From the NCBI RefSeq assembly GCF_003173355.1, contig NZ_QGMY01000002.1, positions 310,001 through 374,000 on the forward strand: 64,000 bases of DNA, in the 5' to 3' direction. The DNA comes from Methanospirillum lacunae. GTDB lineage: Archaea > Halobacteriota > Methanomicrobia > Methanomicrobiales > Methanospirillaceae. The position numbers and the translations under genes are program-made. Positions 1,281 to 17,324 of the stretch are shown here, one piece after another. Position 1 is the stretch's first letter; each line of letters begins with the position of its first letter. Under the pieces are notes generated by a model. It had not been told where the DNA came from. It searched no databases and saw only the letters and a list, made by a program, of their open reading frames with translations.

Positions 1281-1614
1281 ACTATCACTTGGTATATAAG
1301 CAGCGGATCTCCTGCTCATTATATCGGGCAGGTGCCTATGCTCTCTATGTACCTTATCACCTGATTTCATTCAAAGTTTCATAAAGAATGGGTAACATTT
1401 AGGTTGGAGATCGGATAAGATAGTTTTTGAGTTAAATATTCGCGTTTCCTAAAGAAAAATATAAATTAAGTTTCTTTTTTCATTTTTCCTTATTTGTATA
1501 AGAATAAGGTGATATTGATACACCAGAGAGCACAGTAAATCCCGTAATTTATGGGTAGTATTATACACAGTATCTTATATCCGAACCGCAGATTACTTTC
1601 ACCGAGTGATCTGT
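1281..1614. other. AT-rich divergent intergenic region
   Basis: No gene is seen. The stretch separates two divergent genes and is AT-rich, with TATA-like sequences (for example TTATATA about 20 bases upstream of the surface-protein start, and AAATATAAATTAAG near 1460). It probably carries promoters in both directions. Confidence 0.4.
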
Positions 1615-2280
1615 ATGGATGTGATTGAAAGTATTAGCGATGCATTCAGGTATGCATCAGATGCGTTGGTCGGAAAGTGGGTCAGATGGATAATTCTCAT
1701 TATCTCATCAATTATCTTCCCGCTGATCATGGGGTATACGCTTAGGATTATGAAGGGAGTAACACCAGCTCCAGAGCCTGGTGATTACCTGGGTATGTTT
1801 ATTGATGGCATTAAGATGTTGATCATTGGATTTGTCTATATGATCATCCCCTGCATCATAGGTTTTCTGATCTTTTTCTTAAGTGGAGGCTTTGGTGCCC
1901 TTACCATGCTGACGATGAATGTCTCTAATCCTGCAGCATACGCAGGGTTGCTGGTTGGAACACTGGGGATTTCATTCCTGGCCTTTTTCATCATTATGTT
2001 CATCTTCAGCCTGTTTGAGATCATTGGTATGGTTCAGTTTGCACGAACCGGCAGTATGGGAGCAGCGTTTGCATTCAGTGATATACTTGAGAAAATAGGT
2101 AAGATTGGCTGGGGCTCGTACATCATAGCCCTGATTATCCTGAATATTGTTTTCTTTATCATTTATGGCGTTCTCTCTCTGATTCCGATCATCGGTTGGC
2201 TTCTTACCCTGATCCTGCTGCCATTCCTCTCTATCACCGGTGCCAGGTTTTACTCTGAACTCTACGACGCAGGCCAGTAA
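1615..2280 (+). CDS. DUF4013-type membrane protein
   Basis: About 221 residues, very hydrophobic, with five or six predicted membrane segments. The N-terminal block (MDVIESISDAFRYASDAL, then WVRWIILIISSIIFPLIMGY) and the later EIIGMVQFARTGSMGAAF block resemble the archaeal DUF4013 family. Function is unknown for the family; the protein would sit in the cytoplasmic membrane. ATG 1615 is preferred over in-frame GTG 1606 because GAGTGAT lies just upstream of the ATG. It appears monocistronic; the next gene on the same strand starts about 140 bases later. Confidence 0.7.
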   Translation: MDVIESISDAFRYASDALVGKWVRWIILIISSIIFPLIMGYTLRIMKGVTPAPEPGDYLGMFIDGIKMLIIGFVYMIIPCIIGFLIFFLSGGFGALTMLTMNVSNPAAYAGLLVGTLGISFLAFFIIMFIFSLFEIIGMVQFARTGSMGAAFAFSDILEKIGKIGWGSYIIALIILNIVFFIIYGVLSLIPIIGWLLTLILLPFLSITGARFYSELYDAGQ

Positions 2281-2421
2281 TCACCTTTCCTGGTAACCCA
2301 TCCCCTTTTTTAAAGCATCCAAAATGATAACCTCTTGTCAGACTGATATCTAATCTGTATCAACTCCTTCCAGACATCATGATACGTATCAATGAAGGCA
2401 TTAGGAAGGAAAGGACATTTT

Positions 2422-3111
2422 ATGGACACGGGAATTTCCGAATTTCTGCTTGTATTTCAGACCGTAGTACAGTGGATAGCAATCATCCTATCAGCTTCAT
2501 CCGGTGTGTATGATGCACGAAGAAACGGGCTTGATTACTTTGGAGCGTTAGTTATCGCCGTGATTGTTGCAGTGGGAGGTGGAACATTGAGGGATATTCT
2601 TCTTGGGCGGTACCCACTTTTCTGGCTCCAGGACCCCATCTATCTGATCAGTATCTTAATCGTTGGTGTAATTGGGATTATTCTCGTTCCCATCAGTAAA
2701 GGATCCCTAATAACCGAAAATACAGTTCACAATGACCTCTTCAATGCTGTTGTAAGTTTAATGTTTGGAACATCAGGTTCTTTTGCACTGATTGATGCGA
2801 TTTCTCTTGGTATGTGGGCATACCTTGGAACTTTCTATGCTCTGACCAGTGGCATACCACCACTGATCGCCCCGGTTATGGGAGTAATCACCGCATCATT
2901 CGGAGGGGTGCTCAGAGATGTCTTCTTTGTAAAAATTCCTGAGTTATTCAGACCCGGCCAGTTTTATGCATTAGCATCATTCGCCGGAGCTGCAGCCTAT
3001 ACTGTCTGCTGGACTTTTATGATTCCATACCCGACCGGATTTTTAGCCTGTATTATCATCACATTCCTGGTACGAATGATCTCGGTCAGATACAATATCA
3101 CTAGTTTTTAG
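2422..3111 (+). CDS. TRIC-channel-like (UPF0126/YadS) membrane protein
   Basis: About 229 residues with seven predicted membrane segments. Two homologous halves each carry the family's glycine-rich signature: GGGTLRDILLGR near residue 55 and FGGVLRDVFF near residue 160. This is the UPF0126 duplication found in bacterial YadS and archaeal TRIC homologues, which form homotrimeric monovalent-cation channels; the physiological role in methanogens is not established. ATG 2422 is chosen because AAGGA lies six bases upstream. An in-frame ATG at 2392 would add ten residues but has no ribosome-binding site. It converges with the SWIM gene 24 bases downstream. Confidence 0.8.
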   Translation: MDTGISEFLLVFQTVVQWIAIILSASSGVYDARRNGLDYFGALVIAVIVAVGGGTLRDILLGRYPLFWLQDPIYLISILIVGVIGIILVPISKGSLITENTVHNDLFNAVVSLMFGTSGSFALIDAISLGMWAYLGTFYALTSGIPPLIAPVMGVITASFGGVLRDVFFVKIPELFRPGQFYALASFAGAAAYTVCWTFMIPYPTGFLACIIITFLVRMISVRYNITSF

Positions 3112-3135
3112 ATAAATAATCCTGACTGAAACCTG

Positions 3136-3954
3136 TTACTCTTCTTTATCCGTACGTTCATACGCGTACTTTGCAGCTTTGGAATATGTTCCTGATATGT
3201 GATCAGAAAGGTTTACTTTTCCCAGTTTATATGGCGAAGGGCCGAGACGGCTAAAGCAGGCTGTGACGTCTTTTGAAGGCTGAACGTCCCGATATTGTAC
3301 AGTCTCAAATTCTGTGCCGGGATCATAATACCGGGTCAGATCCGGTTTTACGTCTTCTTCGGTCTGATTTTTTTCGACCTGTTTGACTTCTTCCCTCACA
3401 TCCGGATTTACGTACTGAGAAACCCCTGCGATAATCTCGTCACGGGTTTTACCCCTGAGCAGAAAGAGAAGGAGAGGATCTGCGTTCACCTGGTTTCCAA
3501 GTGCCAGGTACGTTGCAACGATATGGCTGCAGGTGTGGTGATCTGATTCGCAGTCGCACCGATAATCCAGGTCTTCAAGTGAGGCCGGTATAACATGAAT
3601 TCTGGCTTCTTTCAGCATCTCGTCAAGTTCCCTGCAGTAATTGCCTGAAAGAAGTTTTGAAAAAAGGTCTTGGTTAGCAGCAAATATCCGGTATACAACC
3701 TCCCAATCATCTTCGAGGTCCATGAGCCAGATCGCTGTATGGTGAGAACCACCAATTGCCTCAAGCACCACAGATTCTGCACCTCCTTGATATATCCCTT
3801 TAATAATTACCTGACCACGTTCTGCAAGTCGTCTTCCTTTCACGAGTTGAGATGTGTCTTTTCCAGGTCTCATCATGGAGAGAAATTCTGCTGTCCACCA
3901 GGATTCTCCTAGAAGTTGCTGTCGGGTCTTCTCATACGTATTGTTCCTCATCAT
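3136..3954 (-). CDS. SWIM zinc-finger protein, partner of the SNF2 helicase
   Basis: 272 residues. Residues about 138-160 hold a SWIM zinc-finger motif, CDC followed by CSHIVA, the CxCx(n)CxH pattern that binds zinc and DNA or protein. The rest has no recognised domain; the C-terminal third is charged and poorly structured. Its ATG overlaps the helicase stop (TGATG), indicating translational coupling. SWIM proteins paired with SNF2 helicases are common in archaea and bacteria, so a shared complex in DNA remodelling or repair is inferred. The exact substrate is unknown. Confidence 0.75.
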   Translation of the reverse strand: MMRNNTYEKTRQQLLGESWWTAEFLSMMRPGKDTSQLVKGRRLAERGQVIIKGIYQGGAESVVLEAIGGSHHTAIWLMDLEDDWEVVYRIFAANQDLFSKLLSGNYCRELDEMLKEARIHVIPASLEDLDYRCDCESDHHTCSHIVATYLALGNQVNADPLLLFLLRGKTRDEIIAGVSQYVNPDVREEVKQVEKNQTEEDVKPDLTRYYDPGTEFETVQYRDVQPSKDVTACFSRLGPSPYKLGKVNLSDHISGTYSKAAKYAYERTDKEE

Positions 3955-8009: not shown

Positions 8010-8040
8010 ATTCCGCCTCGGTTGGAAAAGAAAAGGAAAT

Positions 8041-8544
8041 TTAAGCGAGTAGAGCCACAGTGTCAGCCCAGGACTCGATACCGGTGAGGATCGAATCAGA
8101 CTCGTAGCTTGAAACTGTCACACTGTCACGCTTGAATGTGACATTGAAGTTTTCACCATTTGAGCTGTGAGCTTTGAGTGTACAGCTGAATGAATCCTCA
8201 GAACTGTCATGTGAAGGAGTTCCACCCATCGCAGTCCCAAGTGCAACGGTCCCCAGGATCGTGGTGATATCAGTGTTGAACGCTGCGGAAGTTGGAGCCT
8301 TCACTGAGATCTGACCGACCGTCTTGGCTTCTCCATTTTCATAGACGATCTTCCCTGAGTAGTACTCAGACCCACGGACAACAGCGGCAACGTTCTTTCC
8401 GGCTGAAGTATATGCAACACAACCCCAGGGGTTGTTATCGATCACATCCTGGATAAGTGCCAGGAATGCAGTAATTGTTCCGATCGGAGTGGTAAGTTTC
8501 CTCTCCGCTGACTTTACTGCACCTTTTGCTACAAAGTCTGCTAT
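8041..8544 (-). CDS. Unrecognised protein whose aligned start codon is ATA (GTG 8445 is the alternative)
   Basis: The stop is at 8041. The conservative start is GTG 8445 (134 residues), but the frame stays open upstream and aligns with a diverged copy at 10736-10809. That copy begins ATG-ACA-GAC after GGGTGGAG; here the aligned codons are ATA-GCA-GAC (ATA at 8542-8544) after the same GGGTGGAG. The shared N-terminus is xxDFVxKGAVKSAERKLTTP. The full product would be about 167 residues, with a hydrophobic helix (GTITAFLALIQDVI) followed by a Ser/Thr/Gly-rich beta-type region. No family recognised. It could be a surface or virion-type protein, but nothing proves that. The ATA implies a lost start, a rare start, or use of GTG 8445. 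Confidence 0.5.
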   Translation of the reverse strand: MADFVAKGAVKSAERKLTTPIGTITAFLALIQDVIDNNPWGCVAYTSAGKNVAAVVRGSEYYSGKIVYENGEAKTVGQISVKAPTSAAFNTDITTILGTVALGTAMGGTPSHDSSEDSFSCTLKAHSSNGENFNVTFKRDSVTVSSYESDSILTGIESWADTVALLA

Positions 8545-8686
8545 CTTTTTTCTCCACCCGGACTTTTCCGGTATAAATAGATTTGCCGCGAGTATTTATA
8601 TAGAAAAAATTGGGAGTGAAACGCACGAAGATTTTTAAGTGAAATTACATATCAGGCATGTCTATGTGTGGGCAAGAAATTATACT
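8458..8686. repeat. Direct repeat A, copy 1 (promoter plus 5' end of gene)
   Basis: Imperfect direct repeat of 10727-10952. Shared blocks include CCGCTGACTTTACTGC-like gene sequence, TCTCCACCCGGA, GTATAAATAGATTT, CCGCGAGTAT and TATGTGTGGGC at matching spacing. On the minus strand it covers the first ~28 codons of the neighbouring gene, its GGGTGGAG ribosome-binding site and TATA region. Confidence 0.75.
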
Positions 8687-9799: not shown

Positions 9800-10495
9800 A
9801 TGAATAGTAATAATTTAGAATTATTTCTAAAGTACTCTGGAGTATTCATGCTAGGTATATTATTAAAAAAACAAAATCCACGTGAACTTTATGATAATGG
9901 GATAAATGCGTATAAAAAGGGGGACTATAAAGTAGCTATTAAATTTCTCTCTAAATCATTAAAAAATGATAAAGAGAATCCAAAAATAATGAATGCTATG
10001 GCTCTATGTTACTCAAAAATGGATAATAATATAACAGCGAAATATTATTTGTTAAAAGCATGTAAAAAATCTCCTATCAATGAAACCTATAAAAAAAACC
10101 TTGCAATAATTGACAATATAGAAAATCAAAAGAAGGAAGCGGAAAAGAAAAAAATAGAGATTGATAAGCAAAATAAGGAGAGAGAATATCAAGAAAAAGT
10201 TTCAAAGAGATTGGAAGCAGAAAAGCGAAAATCTGGAAAAATAATTGATGAATATCGCCGAACATGTAATAAATGTGGAAAAGTTTGGCATTCTCTCGTT
10301 TCAAGAGAGAAGGAATTGGCAAAATTAAAAAGTGATTATGAGTGGAGATCAATACCGTGCTGTTCTGGATTATTAACAGCCCCTCAATACCAACGAAACC
10401 GAGATGCAGTTTCTTCAGATATTGAAATGTTAAAACAATGCCCAAATTGTAAATCAAAGGATTATAATGAGGAAATAGTTTCACATGAAGTGTAA
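9800..10495 (+). CDS. TPR protein with coiled coil and C-terminal zinc-ribbon cysteines
   Basis: 231 residues. A hydrophobic stretch at about 10-22 may be a weak membrane anchor. Residues about 28-95 hold two tetratricopeptide-like repeats ([20 protein letters not shown], then [11 protein letters not shown]). A Lys/Glu-rich coiled coil spans about 105-150. The C-terminal part has CNKCGKVWH and CPNCKSKDY, two CxxC knuckles that would make a zinc ribbon. TPRs mediate protein contacts; the partner is unknown. It overlaps the YidD gene by 11 bases, so the two are co-translated. AT-rich composition matches the island. Confidence 0.65.
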
Positions 10496-10724
10496 TTTTT
10501 TCTCCATTTTATCCATTAAATTGATTGAAAAAGTTTGGCATGGGAATTACGGAAGAAAATTTGTCAAAAATAATCATATTATTTGCAGATTTTATCCAAC
10601 TTGCTCAAATTATGCAATACTGGCCATAAGGAAGCATGGATTTATCAAAGGCTGGGTTTTAGTTTATCGAAGATTAATGCGATGCAATCCATATAACACA
10701 GATTCTGCTGTTGATTTTCCTTGA
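10485..10724 (+). CDS. yidD: YidD-family membrane protein insertion efficiency factor
   Basis: 79 residues with the YidD (former DUF37, 'haemolytic domain') signature: [20 protein letters not shown], then [16 protein letters not shown]. The conserved Cys of PTCSNYA and of RCNP are present. In bacteria YidD is a small membrane-associated protein assisting YidC-dependent insertion, usually beside rnpA and yidC. Here it follows a TPR/zinc protein in an AT-rich island, away from any translocase gene. Length is typical. Bacterial origin by transfer is inferred from family distribution and context. Confidence 0.85.
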
Positions 10725-11598: not shown

Positions 11599-11790
11599 TC
11601 ACAACCTTGATAAAAAATGATCCTCACAAATATCATGGATGTAATCCCATACTCCCATAGCCGTAGGTCGTTTCCCGGGAATGGCTAAATCCCGCTCTTT
11701 GTATCGCAACCAAAACAAATTTCTGCATAACTCAGAATCGTACTGATACCCTGGTTCCACCTCCTTACCACAGTATTTACACTGGCTCAT
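11599..11790 (-). CDS. Small zinc-knuckle protein
   Basis: 63 residues. N-terminal CKYCGKEV plus SELCRNLFW suggest a Cys-based zinc site. Function unknown. Its ATG overlaps the TGA of the 47-residue Cys protein upstream (ATGA). A truncated relative lies at 16832-16906 in the second copy of repeat B, so this gene keeps the original 3' end of the split operon. Confidence 0.6.
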   Translation of the reverse strand: MSQCKYCGKEVEPGYQYDSELCRNLFWLRYKERDLAIPGKRPTAMGVWDYIHDICEDHFLSRL

Positions 11791-12206
11791 TTCTTCGGCA
11801 ATTCACACGTTTTAGGAATAGTAATCGGATTGGTGATTGGACTAGGATTTTTATCACAGTAAAAACCACGGGTTCCAACCATGACCAACGGACAGGATTT
11901 ACAGGATTCTACGATAATGACCCGGGTCATTATCTGATAATCTCCATCATTCCAATTGAGTTCTCATCTCCATACCGCCAGATTCCCCGCTCAAAACCGG
12001 AAAAAAAGATCTCTTTACAGGCCTCTGTGTCGACAAGAGCGTCGTGGCAGTCGATAAGATTCGCTTTAGCAATAATTTCGTATGCTTCTGAAAGCTTGGG
12101 AAATTTATATCCTGAATTCCCATTTCCCCGTGGTAACCTACAAAAGCGGTAGAGTGTGCCATCATGCAGAATTGAGGTTTCGATAGCTGATTGCTGTTTA
12201 TGTTCG
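11752..12206. repeat. Direct repeat B, copy 1 (~455 bp)
   Basis: Diverged direct repeat of 16867-17324, covering the exonuclease C-terminus, the 47-residue Cys gene and the first ~14 codons of the zinc-knuckle gene. Long identical blocks such as ACCGCCAGATTCCCCGCTCA and AAAAAAAGATCTCTTTACA are shared. Confidence 0.88.
11787..11930 (-). CDS. 47-residue Cys-containing protein (copy 1)
   Basis: Starts at ATG 11930 overlapping the exonuclease stop (TAATG) and ends at 11787 overlapping the next ATG. It begins MTRVIIVESCKSCPLVMVG, with CxxC and two later Cys (FYCDK, TCELP), so metal binding is plausible. Its paralogue at 16903-17046 has the same length and overlaps, which supports real coding. Function unknown. 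Confidence 0.6.
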   Translation of the reverse strand: MTRVIIVESCKSCPLVMVGTRGFYCDKNPSPITNPITIPKTCELPKK

Positions 12207-12315: not shown

Positions 12316-12594
12316 TTATATCATAGGATGTGGTTGTCTATCAGTTTCATCTTCCATATATAAATACATTTTGTTTGAATAAACCTTCGCCCCAGCTAAA
12401 ATTATAGCCTTTCCTTTATCAGTTAACGCATAGATCGGTTTGATCTTACGTGTGGTAAATATCGATCTTGGCCCAATAACCTCATTGATATATTTGGATG
12501 CACAACTCCATACGAGATCCGTCTTCAATAAAATTTCGGCATCGCTTTTTTCAATTGCTCCCGTGCATACAGATAGTATTGTAATTTCACACAT
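12316..12594 (-). CDS. DUF2099 (methanogenesis marker 8-like) C-terminal part
   Basis: 92 codons in the same frame as the gene ending at 12598, separated from it by TAA-AAT only. It matches the family's C-terminal region: VCTGAIEKSDAEILL, DLVWSCASKYINEV and KPIYALTDKGKAIIL. Together the two parts reconstruct one DUF2099 protein of about 286 residues. Either a nonsense mutation split the gene or this half is made separately from the ATG at 12594, which has no clear ribosome-binding site. Confidence 0.6.
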   Translation of the reverse strand: MCEITILSVCTGAIEKSDAEILLKTDLVWSCASKYINEVIGPRSIFTTRKIKPIYALTDKGKAIILAGAKVYSNKMYLYMEDETDRQPHPMI

Positions 12595-12597
12595 ATT

Positions 12598-13176
12598 TTA
12601 AGATTCTATCTGGCGTATTGAATCAATTTGTGAGATATATCGTTCTGCTACAGTTACTGCAATCCGCTTATACCCAAGATCTATAGCCATCTGCACCCCT
12701 TTTACTGGATCGATTGCTGCAGTTTCCTCGTCAACAATATTCACACCTCGGTCTTTAAGTCTTGTTATCAAACCCGGAATAGGGGATGTTTTTATTATTC
12801 CTGACATCCATCCTCCTATTCCTTGAATAATGTCTGGATTATTACTGATAACTGTTCCAGCACCATCACAGACGATAATTGCTACATCAATGATTCCGAT
12901 TTTTAGGCTACAATGAAGTAACTCAGAAGCTCCAAACGAAAAAATTAGATTTTGATTCTCAATCATCCGGTCAGACTTAAAAAGATGGGCTATATGTATA
13001 CGCTTTTCAATTATCTCTTTAATAGTATCTTCGTTTAACTCACCAGATAAACCCAAAACTTTTTGCCATGTTGGACAAAATTCTATCTTTGGGCCAGTCA
13101 AAACTTTAATTTCATCATCTGTGATCTGAAGTGTCGCTTTTGCAACTTCAATAACATGTTCATTTGTTTTATCCAT
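12598..13176 (-). CDS. DUF2099 (methanogenesis marker 8-like) N-terminal part
   Basis: 192 residues with DUF2099 features: IEFCPTWQKVLG, IFSFGASELLH, IIVCDGAGTVISNNP, QGIGGWMSGIIKTSPIP and GYKRIAVTVAE. In methanogens a canonical marker-8 protein is nearly universal but of unknown biochemical role; the Cys and Gly-rich motifs suggest a ligand or redox site. This is probably a paralogue tied to the sulfur/selenium cluster, 14 bases downstream of selD. The frame ends at a TAA that interrupts the family's normal length. Confidence 0.65.
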   Translation of the reverse strand: MDKTNEHVIEVAKATLQITDDEIKVLTGPKIEFCPTWQKVLGLSGELNEDTIKEIIEKRIHIAHLFKSDRMIENQNLIFSFGASELLHCSLKIGIIDVAIIVCDGAGTVISNNPDIIQGIGGWMSGIIKTSPIPGLITRLKDRGVNIVDEETAAIDPVKGVQMAIDLGYKRIAVTVAERYISQIDSIRQIES

Positions 13177-13190
13177 AATATTCTCACTTT

Positions 13191-14222
13191 TTACTCGGTT
13201 AATGATGAAATTTCTTGAATGTTAGGATTGTGTAAGAGAACAGGATTATCATGATATTTTGTCACAAACCCGACCTCATATGCGGGAATCTCCCTCTTTG
13301 ATAACTCTGCAATGAGATCATTTTTTGCATCCGGCGCAATTGAGATCAGTAACCCCCCTGCAGTCTCAGATGAAATCCCTTTTTCTAATCCAAACCCAAA
13401 AAAATCTGATAAAATTGGTGCATTCTTGATAGATGGGATCGTGTGAATATTCAAGGTAACATGACTATTATCGGCTATTTTTGCTGCATGCCCATAAAGA
13501 CCAAATCCAGTAACATCTGTCAGGGCATGAGCACCTGTAACCTGCACAGCTTCTGCGGCTTTCTGATTCGAGGTAGTCATGCAGGTTATTGCAATATCAA
13601 CTGATTCCTGAAGATCACTAGAATCAACAATTGAATCAATTTCTTCAGGATTCTTCTCATATATTCTGGATGCAGACATTATAGGCTGAATACCAACCGG
13701 TTTAGTTAATAATAAAACATCTCCCGGTTTTGCACCTGAATTATAAATGATCTCTTTAGGATGTGCAACCCCAGTTACTGCTCCACCTATTATTGGCCAC
13801 GGATTTATTATCGTGTGCCCCCCAACGAGAGGAGCCTTAATTGAATCGCAAAAATCACGAAAACCTCCCAGTAACTTTTTAGATTGATCAACACTTACCC
13901 CTCTAGGAAGACCCAGAATCGCTAAAACCCCAGCGATCACTGTTCCTCCCATCGCGAAAACATCATTCGTACAGTTACAAGCTGCAATCTCCCCCTGAAG
14001 ATATGGATCATCAACAATCGGGGTAAAAAAATCAACGGTTTTAATTAATACAATATTTTCATTAATTTTGATAATTGCGGCATCATCTCCAGGTCCAAGG
14101 ACATTTTCTGGGTATGATCCTCCAATAGCCTCTAATAATTTTTCCAACTCATTTTCCGGGAGTTTACAAGAACAACCGAATAAATCTACCATATCAGTCA
14201 AAGCCGGAAATTTTTGGCTCAT
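13191..14222 (-). CDS. selD: Selenide, water dikinase (selenophosphate synthetase)
   Basis: 343 residues, typical SelD length. The N-terminal catalytic segment GCSCKLP places Cys17 and Lys20 where E. coli SelD has its Cys and Lys. It then shows the ATP-binding GPGDDAAII, VDFFTPIVDDPYLQGEIAA, NDVFAMGG, LVGGHTI and DVTGFGLYGHA motifs. The reaction is selenide + ATP + water to selenophosphate + AMP + Pi. No selenocysteine genes (selA, selB, pscS, pstK) or tRNA-Sec are in the window, so its selenium sink is unknown; selenouridine in tRNA or labile selenium in an enzyme are options. It overlaps the TusA-like gene by 29 bases and belongs to its operon. Confidence 0.9.
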   Translation of the reverse strand: MSQKFPALTDMVDLFGCSCKLPENELEKLLEAIGGSYPENVLGPGDDAAIIKINENIVLIKTVDFFTPIVDDPYLQGEIAACNCTNDVFAMGGTVIAGVLAILGLPRGVSVDQSKKLLGGFRDFCDSIKAPLVGGHTIINPWPIIGGAVTGVAHPKEIIYNSGAKPGDVLLLTKPVGIQPIMSASRIYEKNPEEIDSIVDSSDLQESVDIAITCMTTSNQKAAEAVQVTGAHALTDVTGFGLYGHAAKIADNSHVTLNIHTIPSIKNAPILSDFFGFGLEKGISSETAGGLLISIAPDAKNDLIAELSKREIPAYEVGFVTKYHDNPVLLHNPNIQEISSLTE

Positions 14223-14454
14223 TTATTTCCCCATTTTTTCTAATTAAGATATGATATTTTCCATCAATTTCTTGAATTTGACAAAGTTCATGCCTTTCAC
14301 GGAGTATAAACCTGATTATATTATCTTTCGAAGGAGGGTATTCCACAATGATAAGTAATTCATCACCAATTGCCATTTCACGAATCTTTTTTCGTGTTTC
14401 TAATACAGGAATCGGGCAACTTCTCCCACATACGTTTAATTCCAATTTAGTCAT
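14194..14454 (-). CDS. TusA/YedF-like sulfur (selenium) carrier protein
   Basis: 86 residues of TusA/SirA fold. It has the CPxP signature CGRSCPIPVLETRKKI with the active Cys13, then ELLIIVEYPPSKDNIIRFI. TusA-family proteins carry persulfide sulfur on this Cys; YedF relatives occur next to selD and are linked to selenium metabolism. The overlap with selD and the six-base gap to the DsrE-like gene suggest one transcript and a Cys-based relay delivering selenide or sulfide to SelD (inference). Confidence 0.85.
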   Translation of the reverse strand: MTKLELNVCGRSCPIPVLETRKKIREMAIGDELLIIVEYPPSKDNIIRFILRERHELCQIQEIDGKYHILIRKNGEINEPKISGFD

Positions 14455-14460
14455 TGATAG

Positions 14461-14817
14461 TCAGAAAAATATTACTTTATCACTTTTCATAACGAGATCA
14501 GTAAGATCGTGCATAGTTCCAAAGTGTATCCCATCTACAATTTTGTCTTTTGTGATACCCCTAGCCTGGCAACACGGACCACACATGATGATTTTAGCTC
14601 CGGATTCTATAGCCTCTCGGACTAAATTTTCAATATTGGCAAATTCAACCGGATTTTGGTCTTTTAATCCAACATAGGTTCCATTTTCTAGAAAGAATAT
14701 ATTGACCTTAATTTCTTCCAATAGTGCAGTAAGGACAAATCTCAATGCAGAAAAAGATCTTTCACTTCCGTATGGTGCGTCCCCAATGATAACAGTAACA
14801 GATTTTTGTGAACTCAT
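14461..14817 (-). CDS. DsrE/DsrF-like sulfurtransferase-type protein
   Basis: 118 residues of the DsrE-like fold: VTVIIGDAPYGSERSFSALR at the N-terminus, LENGTYVGL in the middle, then IIMCGPCCQARGITKD containing the conserved Cys of the TusD/DsrE family, here a CxxCC motif. DsrE proteins exchange persulfide with TusA. It is the first gene of the operon; GTGAT lies four bases before its ATG. The divergent regulator and a 25-bp palindrome lie upstream. Confidence 0.82.
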   Translation of the reverse strand: MSSQKSVTVIIGDAPYGSERSFSALRFVLTALLEEIKVNIFFLENGTYVGLKDQNPVEFANIENLVREAIESGAKIIMCGPCCQARGITKDKIVDGIHFGTMHDLTDLVMKSDKVIFF

Positions 14818-15175
14818 AGTATCACGGCGTACTATTATCTGATTTGAACTGAATTTTAAGACATAATCTTATCAAGAATTGAATATCCAATTTTAATCGG
14901 TTTTCATAATTCATGACCTAATTTGAGATTGAAAGGCTTTCATTAATTTTGACGGTTATTTTTCTTCTATGACCTGAATATTAATCTTGAAGATTAATAT
15001 TATGTGGATGAATTAACCATTTATCCGTCTTTAACCAAAAGGATAATAATCGATTGAATTTCAAAAGATAGAAAAGAATAAACCCGCCTTTTTTTTGTAA
15101 TTACCTTGAGTATAAATAATCAATTCATAACTCTCTTAACGACTGAGAAGAAATATAAAGATTCAATGATCTCTC
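14818..15175. promoter_or_regulatory. Divergent control region of the sulfur/selenium module
   Basis: 358 bases between the DsrE-like operon and the regulator gene, AT-rich with no ORF. A TATA-like AAATATAAAG lies about 20 bases before the regulator ATG, suggesting leaderless transcription. The palindrome at 14977-15001 is nearly central. Confidence 0.6.
14977..15001. promoter_or_regulatory. 25-bp perfect palindrome, candidate operator
   Basis: Arms AATATTAATCTT and AAGATTAATATT are exact reverse complements separated by one G. It sits about 160 bases from the DsrE-like start and 175 from the regulator start, so it could serve both promoters as a binding site for a dimeric winged-helix protein. 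Confidence 0.6.
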
Positions 15176-16021
15176 ATGACTTCCCCAGTTGTATTGTATA
15201 ATGATATCAGATGTGGATTAGACTCTATTCTACGATCTAGACTACAAATGCAAATTTTATTATCGCTTGGTGAAGGTTGCAAAACCCTGTCTGATCTAAG
15301 AGCGATCACCGGCAGCTCATCACAGGCATTGGTACCTAAAATTCGTGAGCTCGAAACCCGATTTATTATTTCATCAAAAAAATACGAATACTGTCTGACT
15401 CCGTTAGGACGGCTAATTCAGGAGAAACTTACGGACTTCACGAGGTTATTATCAGTCCTTTTTAAACATGATGATTTTTGGAATAGTCATTATCTTGATG
15501 GCATTCCCCCGGAGTTTATTAAGGAGATTAGCGATCTTTATGACTCTCGGATAATCGCCGACACGAATATTGAAGTTTTTCAGGTTTATTCATACTATCT
15601 AAAAATTCTCGAAGAGTCTGATAATATCCACTGGATATCATCTATATTAAACCCACATCACATCCAGGCTATTACCTCTAGACTTGCTTATGGAATTCAT
15701 GTTGAAATGATTGTGAATTCTGAAATAGCAGAAATGATAAAAACTGAACCATACTGCTCACTACTTGGTTCAATTGATCCCAGTTCACATTTCAAATTAT
15801 ATCTCACTGAAGAAAGAATAAAAATTGGAATGATTGTGAGTGACACTAATCTTTTTTTGGGTCTTTTTAAAAACGACATGATTACTTTTGATGCATCCTC
15901 TCATTTTATCAGTGTAGATCCTGATGCACTTTCATGGGGAGAACGATTGTTTTCATATTATAAAGACCGTTCATCGGGATTATGTTTTCAAAAATCATGT
16001 AATAAAACAATATCAACCTGA
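15176..16021 (+). CDS. Winged-helix regulator with FilR1 (DUF1724)-type sensor domain
   Basis: 281 residues. Residues about 20-85 form a winged helix (ILLSLGEGCKTLSDLRAIT, SSSQALVPKIRELETRFII, YCLTPLGRLIQ). The C-terminal two thirds resemble the FilR1/DUF1724 domain found in many methanogen regulators, ending LFLGLFKNDMITFDASSHFI. Such proteins are probable ligand-responsive transcription factors. It is divergent to the DsrE-TusA-SelD operon across a palindrome, and the CcdA-like gene follows on the same strand, so local control is inferred. Confidence 0.8.
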   Translation: MTSPVVLYNDIRCGLDSILRSRLQMQILLSLGEGCKTLSDLRAITGSSSQALVPKIRELETRFIISSKKYEYCLTPLGRLIQEKLTDFTRLLSVLFKHDDFWNSHYLDGIPPEFIKEISDLYDSRIIADTNIEVFQVYSYYLKILEESDNIHWISSILNPHHIQAITSRLAYGIHVEMIVNSEIAEMIKTEPYCSLLGSIDPSSHFKLYLTEERIKIGMIVSDTNLFLGLFKNDMITFDASSHFISVDPDALSWGERLFSYYKDRSSGLCFQKSCNKTIST

Positions 16022-16139
16022 TCGATGAATATTCATTAAGTCCTTTAATTTTCATTATGGGAACTAATATGTGAATTCCTTATAATCTTATTTTGATGCA
16101 TTGGAACACTATCAATGGGTATTTTCCTGGAGGCAAATT

Positions 16140-16808
16140 GTGACCAATTTTGATCCATCAATCTGGGGAATTTTTATATTTGGATTAATTGCAGGGATTT
16201 GCCCCTGCAATAGTGTCTTATGCCTGGGCCTAATTGGATATTTGACTAGTGGCAATACGAATCTCTCCCTAATTAACATTCTGAAACTTACAACTTCATT
16301 CTGTATTGGGACAATTATTGTTTTAATTCCCTTGGGGATGATTGCCGGGTTGATTGGGCATTATCTACTTTTTCTCAATGGTACGATCGCATGGTCAATT
16401 GGCGGGGTGCTTTTAATACTGATGGGATTACAACTCCTTCATGTATATAAGCCTCCAATTCGGAGCATTTTTAACTTTTTCAGACGCCCCTCTTCATATA
16501 CAGTAATGGGAGCTTTTTTACTTGGACTTTCGTTTGGTGCTATAACCGTTGGGCGTGGGGCCCCTATGCTCTTGATAGTTTTGACTTACATCGCTTTATA
16601 TCAGACAATGTTCCAAGGGTTCTTCACAATTCTCATCTATGCTATTGGATTAAGCATCCCGCTCATTATTATCAGTTCATTGGGTGGCGCATTAGGCAAA
16701 AAGATTAAGGGATATTCACGGATAAGTGGGGATGTCGCTGATAAAATTATTGGGTCTGTAATAATTATTATAGGGATATACTTTGTGTATTTGGCATTTA
16801 CTCTGTGA
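16140..16808 (+). CDS. CcdA/DsbD-like membrane thiol-redox transporter
   Basis: About 222 residues with six predicted membrane segments. CPC in GLIAGICPCNSVLCLGL near the first helix and LGLSFGAITVGRGAPMLL in the second half match the pseudo-symmetric Cys-Pro pattern of CcdA/DsbD-type proteins, which move reducing equivalents or small thiol-linked cargo across membranes. GTG 16140 is chosen because GGAGG lies six bases upstream; TTG 16101 is a weaker option. Next to TusA/DsrE/SelD genes it could supply reductant or move a sulfur or selenium species (inference). Confidence 0.7.
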   Translation: MTNFDPSIWGIFIFGLIAGICPCNSVLCLGLIGYLTSGNTNLSLINILKLTTSFCIGTIIVLIPLGMIAGLIGHYLLFLNGTIAWSIGGVLLILMGLQLLHVYKPPIRSIFNFFRRPSSYTVMGAFLLGLSFGAITVGRGAPMLLIVLTYIALYQTMFQGFFTILIYAIGLSIPLIIISSLGGALGKKIKGYSRISGDVADKIIGSVIIIIGIYFVYLAFTL

Positions 16809-16831: not shown

Positions 16832-16906
16832 CTATTTATAGAAATAAATTAAATCAGATTTCGGTTCGGGTTCCACCTCCTTACCGCAGTATTTACACAG
16901 GCTCAT
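16832..16906 (-). pseudogene. Truncated zinc-knuckle gene (copy 2)
   Basis: MSLCKYCGKEVEPEP matches the 63-residue gene at 11599-11790 for ~14 codons, then unrelated sequence leads to a TAG at 16832. The junction marks one edge of the inserted segment. Confidence 0.65.
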
Positions 16907-17324
16907 TTTTCCGGCAATTCACACGTGTCTGGAATAGTCAGCGGATCGGCGATTGGACTAGAATTTTTATCACAATATAAACCACGAGTTCCAACCATGA
17001 CTAACGGGTAGGATTTACAGGTTTCCACGATAATGACCCTGGTCATTACCTGATAACCTCCATCATTCCGATTGATTTTTCATCTGCATACCGCCAGATT
17101 CCCCGCTCAATACCGGAAAAAAAGATCTCTTTACACGCTTCTGTATCGACAAGAGCAACGTGGCAATCGATAAGATCAGACTTCACAATAATCTCGTACG
17201 CTTCTGAAAGTTTGGGAAATTTATAACCTGTGTCCCATTTCCCCGTGGTAACCTAAAAAAGACGGTAGAGTTTACCATCGTGTTGAATTGAGGCTTCGAT
17301 AGTTGATTGCTATTTATTTTCGTT
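16867..17324. repeat. Direct repeat B, copy 2 (~455 bp)
   Basis: Diverged copy of 11752-12206 in the same orientation, about 5.1 kb away. The two copies enclose 12207-16866. Upstream of this copy the exonuclease N-terminus continues; downstream of copy 1 the zinc-knuckle gene continues, which is single-crossover geometry. Confidence 0.88.
16903..17046 (-). CDS. 47-residue Cys-containing protein (copy 2)
   Basis: Same length and same TAATG/ATGA overlaps as the gene at 11787-11930. The second Cys of the CxxC has become Tyr (ETCKSYPLVMVG), while the later YCDK and TCELP cysteines remain. Probably a decaying duplicate. Confidence 0.5.
   Translation of the reverse strand: MTRVIIVETCKSYPLVMVGTRGLYCDKNSSPIADPLTIPDTCELPEK

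Follow-up and report, generated by a model that had tools for sequence, protein, structure and literature searches.

For what purpose does a methanogen keep a selenophosphate synthetase (SelD) when no known selenium trait accompanies it? Archaeal SelD proteins without a known use of their product have been an open point since 2014. In the passages of the 2014-15 accounts considered here, Methanoplanus petrolearius, now renamed Methanolacinia petrolearia (PMC4149034), stands out among archaea for an orphan SelD that no known selenium trait accompanies, and these passages give the SelD gene only, not its operon partners (PMC4210487, PMC5322559). The same question is raised by a stretch of 64,000 nucleotides from Methanospirillum lacunae (contig NZ_QGMY01000002.1, positions 310,001 to 374,000), here termed the window, in which a SelD gene is surrounded by genes of the DsrE, TusA and DUF2099 families. 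A preliminary description, made from the sequence alone, had interpreted this locus as a compact sulfur/selenium module. Here, we describe the locus together with its counterpart in M. petrolearia and discuss a candidate consumer of selenophosphate encoded in both.

A four-gene operon shared by two methanogens

Profile searches of the open reading frames in the window confirmed the four genes DsrE-TusA-SelD-DUF2099 as an operon on the minus strand, running from 14817 to 12316. The first gene (14461..14817, minus) encodes a DsrE family protein of the YchN type (PF02635, E 8e-24) and is followed after 6 nt by a gene for a TusA-like sulfurtransferase with a CPxP cysteine (14194..14454, minus; PF01206, E 1e-20). 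The latter overlaps by 29 nt with the gene for SelD, selenide water dikinase, which carries a GCSCK active site (13191..14222, minus; TIGR00476, 263 bits). Another 14 nt downstream begins the DUF2099 sequence related to methanogenesis marker 8, divided into a reading frame for the N-terminal 192 amino acids that ends at an in-frame TAA (12598..13176, minus; PF09872, E 2e-61, profile positions 1-184) and a second one for the C-terminal 92 amino acids in the same frame (12316..12594, minus; PF09872, E 1e-15, profile positions 188-254). An AT-rich intergenic region with a GC content of 0.27 (14818..15175), presumed to hold the promoters, separates the operon from two divergent genes on the plus strand, a FilR1-type winged-helix regulator (15176..16021; PF08350, E 6e-23) and a CcdA/DsbD-type membrane protein with a TTG start (16101..16808; PF02683, E 2e-10); both assignments agree with the preliminary description. 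Elsewhere in the window, a YidD-like reading frame (10485-10724; TIGR00278, above cut-off) overlaps the end of a TPR gene.

Within the class, SelD was found in two of 232 genomes, namely those of the window and of M. petrolearia; none turned up in the 11 further genomes from the genus of the window. The SelD locus of M. petrolearia comprises DsrE-TusA-SelD-DUF2099 in an order identical to that of the window, with DUF2099 as one intact reading frame, and the amino acid identities between the two operons are 57, 59, 57 and 60%, respectively. Between the same two genomes, EF-1alpha is 76% and the canonical marker 8 protein (mmp8) 54% identical. The class search for DsrE likewise yielded these two genomes, and in addition one remote relative at 35%. 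Its recurrence in a second genome, with gene content and order preserved, shows that the four-gene arrangement is not due to chance, and the uniform identities together with this order suggest that the unit has travelled and diverged as a whole. The operon proposed in the preliminary description is thereby borne out by the gene calls as well as by its repetition, and its genes do co-occur in another genome. The orphan SelD of M. petrolearia and that of the window are orthologous (57%), come from the same class, lack a known selenium trait and belong to the same four-gene operon.

The two copies differ in that the window copy has the split DUF2099 gene and adds the FilR1 and CcdA genes. Neither the regulator gene nor the CcdA-like gene lies beside the M. 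petrolearia operon, and both were therefore dismissed as core parts of the module. It follows that the relay starting at a membrane thiol carrier, as had been envisaged previously, is not supported in its membrane part.

Properties of the DsrE, TusA and SelD proteins

The SelD of the window reaches 263.5 bits against TIGR00476 (cut-off 125) and 380 bits against NF010705 (cut-off 291). Its motifs GCSCK, GDDAA, DFFTP, CN..ND and DVTGFG align with those of other archaeal SelD proteins and were also compared with solved structures; they include the catalytic Cys/Lys near the N-terminus and the metal- and ATP-binding Asp and Asn residues as named in PMC4210487. By its conserved residues and scores, the protein is predicted to be a true and catalytically complete SelD. 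It shares 49% identity with SelD from a selenocysteine-using genome and attains just 31.5 bits against the S-type family NF038049 (cut-off 250). The SelD also scores against mmp2, a methanogen marker in the same ATPase superfamily, and a parallel between mmp2/mmp8 and SelD/DUF2099 may be offered as an idea only.

In DsrE, an invariant CxxC..RG motif (MCGPCCQARG) is common to the proteins of the window, M. petrolearia, three haloarchaea and YchN, the last of which is also the closest solved structure (1jx7). Membership in TusD of the TusBCD complex (TIGR03012) was rejected at 26 bits against a cut-off of 89, the protein being YchN-like. Alignment of TusA showed residues C13, P14 and P16 to be invariant. 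Assignment to YedF (TIGR03527) was likewise discarded, as the scores of 38.1 and 15.2 bits fall short of the required 110 and TusA and DsrE are encoded by separate genes.

Search for known selenium traits in the host genome

The host genome comprises 3.74 Mb in 25 contigs, with the window located on contig 2, and is 99.94% complete. A tRNA-Sec was found at gathering score neither here nor in M. petrolearia; matches of 71-85 nt below this score were taken as ordinary tRNAs. Whole-genome searches of both gave no SelB, the best matches and thus the SelB-like candidates being EF-1alpha, and no SepSecS, the same search having recovered a true cluster in another genome (G411). The 2-selenouridine synthase YbbB/SelU, fused or split, was missing from both genomes with a positive control from M. 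jannaschii, and YqeB was found in neither methanogen genome, its cut-off being exceeded by the haloarchaeal XdhC-YqeB fusion. Since tRNA-Sec, SelB, SepSecS, 2-selenouridine synthase and YqeB are all absent, the window SelD is an orphan. The preliminary description had noted no visible selenocysteine machinery and an unclear selenium sink within its stretch of DNA; both statements hold genome-wide for every known sink searched for, so that this SelD is not an ordinary one.

In addition, no selenium-specific transporter was found in the two genomes. A PF04143 pair of M. petrolearia was considered as a selenium importer and discarded: it lies under all cut-offs of the NCBIfam models, including those for YedE selenium transporters, is closest to TsuA and stands beside a metallo-beta-lactamase/rhodanese protein. 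The corresponding pair in the window genome is matched by Pfam alone. The cluster recovered in G411 (L065, 7860-14628) appears to be a complete selenocysteine cluster with SelD, a PSTK-SelB fusion of 706 amino acids and SepSecS; such a fusion was previously reported in an Archaeoglobi species (PMC9499178).

DsrE and TusA as putative selenium supply genes

The proximity of DsrE and TusA to SelD is not new. In bacteria, the YedF protein consists of fused TusA and DsrE domains and is tied to SelD (PMC5322559), and it shares a CxxC-type motif in its DsrE part with the proteins described here, which differ in being encoded by separate genes in the order DsrE-TusA and in scoring far under the YedF cut-off. 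Furthermore, in haloarchaeal SelD loci (L066, L067 and L068) TusA immediately precedes SelD, and a YchN-type DsrE with the same CxxC..RG motif lies nearby. These loci also contain the XdhC-YqeB fusion and, where scanned, YqeC above cut-off, and L068 additionally encodes a molybdenum hydroxylase. The haloarchaeal clusters for selenium-dependent molybdenum hydroxylases thus resemble the methanogen operons in their supply genes, but YqeB is absent from both methanogens and DUF2099 stands in place of the hydroxylase maturation genes. A methanogen example is provided by Methanococcus maripaludis, in which tusAD transcripts rise by about 4.5 log2 units upon selenium depletion (PMC11097638). This TusA and DsrE-type pair likewise responds to selenium supply, but its host uses selenocysteine, and the likeness concerns the gene pair and its response, not a sequence comparison.

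On the basis of the haloarchaeal clusters, YedF and the tusAD response, DsrE and TusA appear to be a pair of general use in selenium delivery. As the DsrE-TusA-SelD set stands beside YqeB/YqeC in haloarchaea, it also resembles a supply unit whose consumer can be exchanged. Our main inference, drawn from gene context, is that DUF2099 would take the consumer slot in the two methanogens.

Relation of the DUF2099 protein to methanogenesis marker 8

The SelD-linked DUF2099 protein belongs to the marker 8 family (TIGR03275/DUF2099) and shares C34, C103 and C223 (M. petrolearia numbering) with two aligned canonical copies. It is not the canonical marker 8 protein itself, as a separate, higher-scoring copy is present elsewhere in both genomes. 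Against TIGR03275 (cut-off 232.7), the window protein reaches 228.0 bits when read through the stop and the M. petrolearia protein 234.6 bits, compared with 316 bits for the canonical copy. In the phylum, searched in 394 genomes, only the window genome and M. petrolearia carry the SelD-linked form, with E below 1e-170 and the next best match at 6e-66. In a tree of a 14-row set that includes other lineages, with long branches that leave the exact placement unsure, the SelD-linked pair forms its own clade (100/99) outside the sampled canonical copies of Methanomicrobiales. A recent duplication of the host mmp8 is disfavoured by this tree, again with caution on account of the long branches. As both genomes encode canonical mmp8 separately, the SelD-linked protein represents a distinct lineage: it is a second copy beside the canonical one, in a clade of its own, with a lower score and tied to SelD. 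No published description of a pairing between SelD and a marker 8 relative was found in the literature searched, in agreement with the preliminary description.

The canonical DUF2099 gene of one genome adjoins mmp16, which belongs to the HcyBio sulfur-incorporation family, and that of another adjoins a fragment of an MCR component A2 gene as well as a ferredoxin gene. These neighbourhoods give hints of chalcogen or MCR-related chemistry, no more. They may also be read in favour of a sulfur module, with a thiophosphate as the product of SelD and sulfur as the substrate of DUF2099, a use that is also conceivable for canonical mmp8; TusA and DsrE carry sulfur as well, and Crenarchaeota SelD-like proteins were proposed to act on sulfur (PMC4210487). 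We regard this as unlikely, because the window SelD exceeds its family cut-offs, is close to that of a selenocysteine user and remains far below the cut-off of the S-type family. Several observations concern the family at large. At L031 (G237, 1495-3641), a DUF2099 gene lies immediately ahead of methanogenesis marker 16 (HcyBio), a possible functional hint for mmp8. A DUF2099 frame in another genome (G442, contig C9, 219944-220717; L042) contains one in-frame TAG, which is possibly a pyrrolysine codon or the mark of a broken gene. In family f8 (G468, G367, G337, G426 and G536), several genomes have two DUF2099 copies near each other on one contig.

No biochemistry for DUF2099 was found in the literature searched, a PDB sequence search gave no relative and the structure prediction yielded no usable fold (pLDDT 34), so that the consumer role rests on gene context. 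With no catalytic activity known for DUF2099, DsrE, TusA and SelD might instead feed a sink elsewhere in the genome, the paralogue being a selenium or sulfur carrier, a chaperone or a regulator. The C-terminal piece shows a weak likeness to winged-helix families (HTH_45, E 1e-5; Sso10a, E 0.0017) in line with such a reading, but this match sits within the far stronger DUF2099 match. In view of DUF2099 being the only non-supply gene kept in both operons and of the absence of all known selenium traits searched for, such a role seems rather improbable.

Origin and genomic context

Both operons have a GC content of 0.37, and their GC3 values of 0.24-0.31 lie below those of three ordinary window genes (0.43-0.47). 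In the window, the module is bracketed by direct repeats of 455 bp that are 87% identical (455-column alignment), one on the operon-end side (11753..12206) and one just past the CcdA gene (16869..17322). The repeats overlap decayed exonuclease-like sequence, with a remnant resembling RNase_T at the second copy, and gene remnants flank the module on both sides. They may be left over from an insertion event or mark a place where recombination could lead to loss. The M. petrolearia operon has genes for an integrase, an ArdC-like protein and a Cdc6/AAA protein at distances of up to about 10 kb. Near both operons there is also a gene without a Pfam match (window 8023-8553; L010 8403-8906), 46% identical over 177 amino acids, whose reading frame appears interrupted in the window. 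Both copies lie in surroundings that resemble mobile elements. The module was likely acquired laterally and is compositionally foreign.

The paralogue was further sought in genome contigs and viral contigs. Viral contigs contained no relatives, and neither did a genome-contig scan, which also missed the M. petrolearia copy, so that its silence carries little weight. Among plasmids, the only matches were generic DsrE proteins and a distant mmp8-like gene on the Methanosphaera plasmid pNP174 (L053).

The mobile genes of M. petrolearia, the direct repeats and the foreign composition, together with the CcdA-type thiol-redox membrane protein next door, would also suit a mobile-element-borne system for the detoxification or storage of selenite or selenide without a biosynthetic product. 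SelD, however, spends ATP and does not belong to the known enzymes of detoxification, and the CcdA gene is not kept beside the second copy, which makes this reading highly improbable.

The interrupted DUF2099 gene of the window

At 12592-12600, the two DUF2099 reading frames of the window, which share one frame, are separated by TAA-AAT-ATG, the ATG standing one codon after the stop. It had been overlooked previously that the reading frame 12316-12594 encodes the C-terminal third of this DUF2099 protein. Each part is 61% identical to the intact M. petrolearia protein, with identities of 0.73-0.76 at codon positions 1 and 2 and of 0.38-0.40 at position 3, and the stop falls in a linker whose length varies across the family. 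Recoding of the stop as a selenocysteine or pyrrolysine codon was ruled out, as the codon is TAA. The gene may have undergone fission, giving two co-translated chains, or may have acquired a nonsense mutation recently; a sequencing error is a further possibility.

If the stop inactivates the gene, the module may be a decaying island that has lost its function in this particular genome, a reading with which the remnants at both sides and the lack of SelD matches in 11 congeneric genomes are consistent. Nevertheless, DsrE, TusA and SelD are intact, the two parts of DUF2099 show equal conservation and the stop lies one codon ahead of an ATG in the variable linker; we therefore consider decay very unlikely.

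A possible role for the orphan SelD

The reading we prefer, to which we assign somewhat less than an even chance, is that of a laterally acquired, SelD-dependent module for selenium use with DUF2099 as the consumer of selenophosphate. The YchN-type DsrE, through its CxxC motif, and TusA, through its CPxP motif, would bind reduced selenium and pass it to SelD, which would convert it into selenophosphate. The consumer of the latter would be the DUF2099 protein, which differs from the canonical mmp8 copies sampled in the order and would most likely insert selenium into a protein side chain or a small molecule by means of its conserved cysteines. In the window genome, DUF2099 would be made as two chains or have been recently inactivated. 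The direction in which the chalcogen flows, its identity as selenium instead of sulfur and the consumer role of DUF2099 are inferred. Of the sulfur/selenium module first proposed, the complete SelD, the lack of a known sink and the undescribed pairing have stood, whereas the relay starting at the membrane has not.

The full module is known from two genomes only. Tentatively, it may constitute a further SelD-dependent trait, so far in two methanogens, in which a DUF2099 paralogue puts selenium into a methanogenesis-related protein or cofactor. For the archaeal SelD proteins without a known product use, the operon provides a concrete hypothesis with one candidate consumer, in an organism, M. petrolearia, that is in culture. 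If true, this would explain the archaeal orphan SelD and open a biochemical approach to methanogenesis marker 8.
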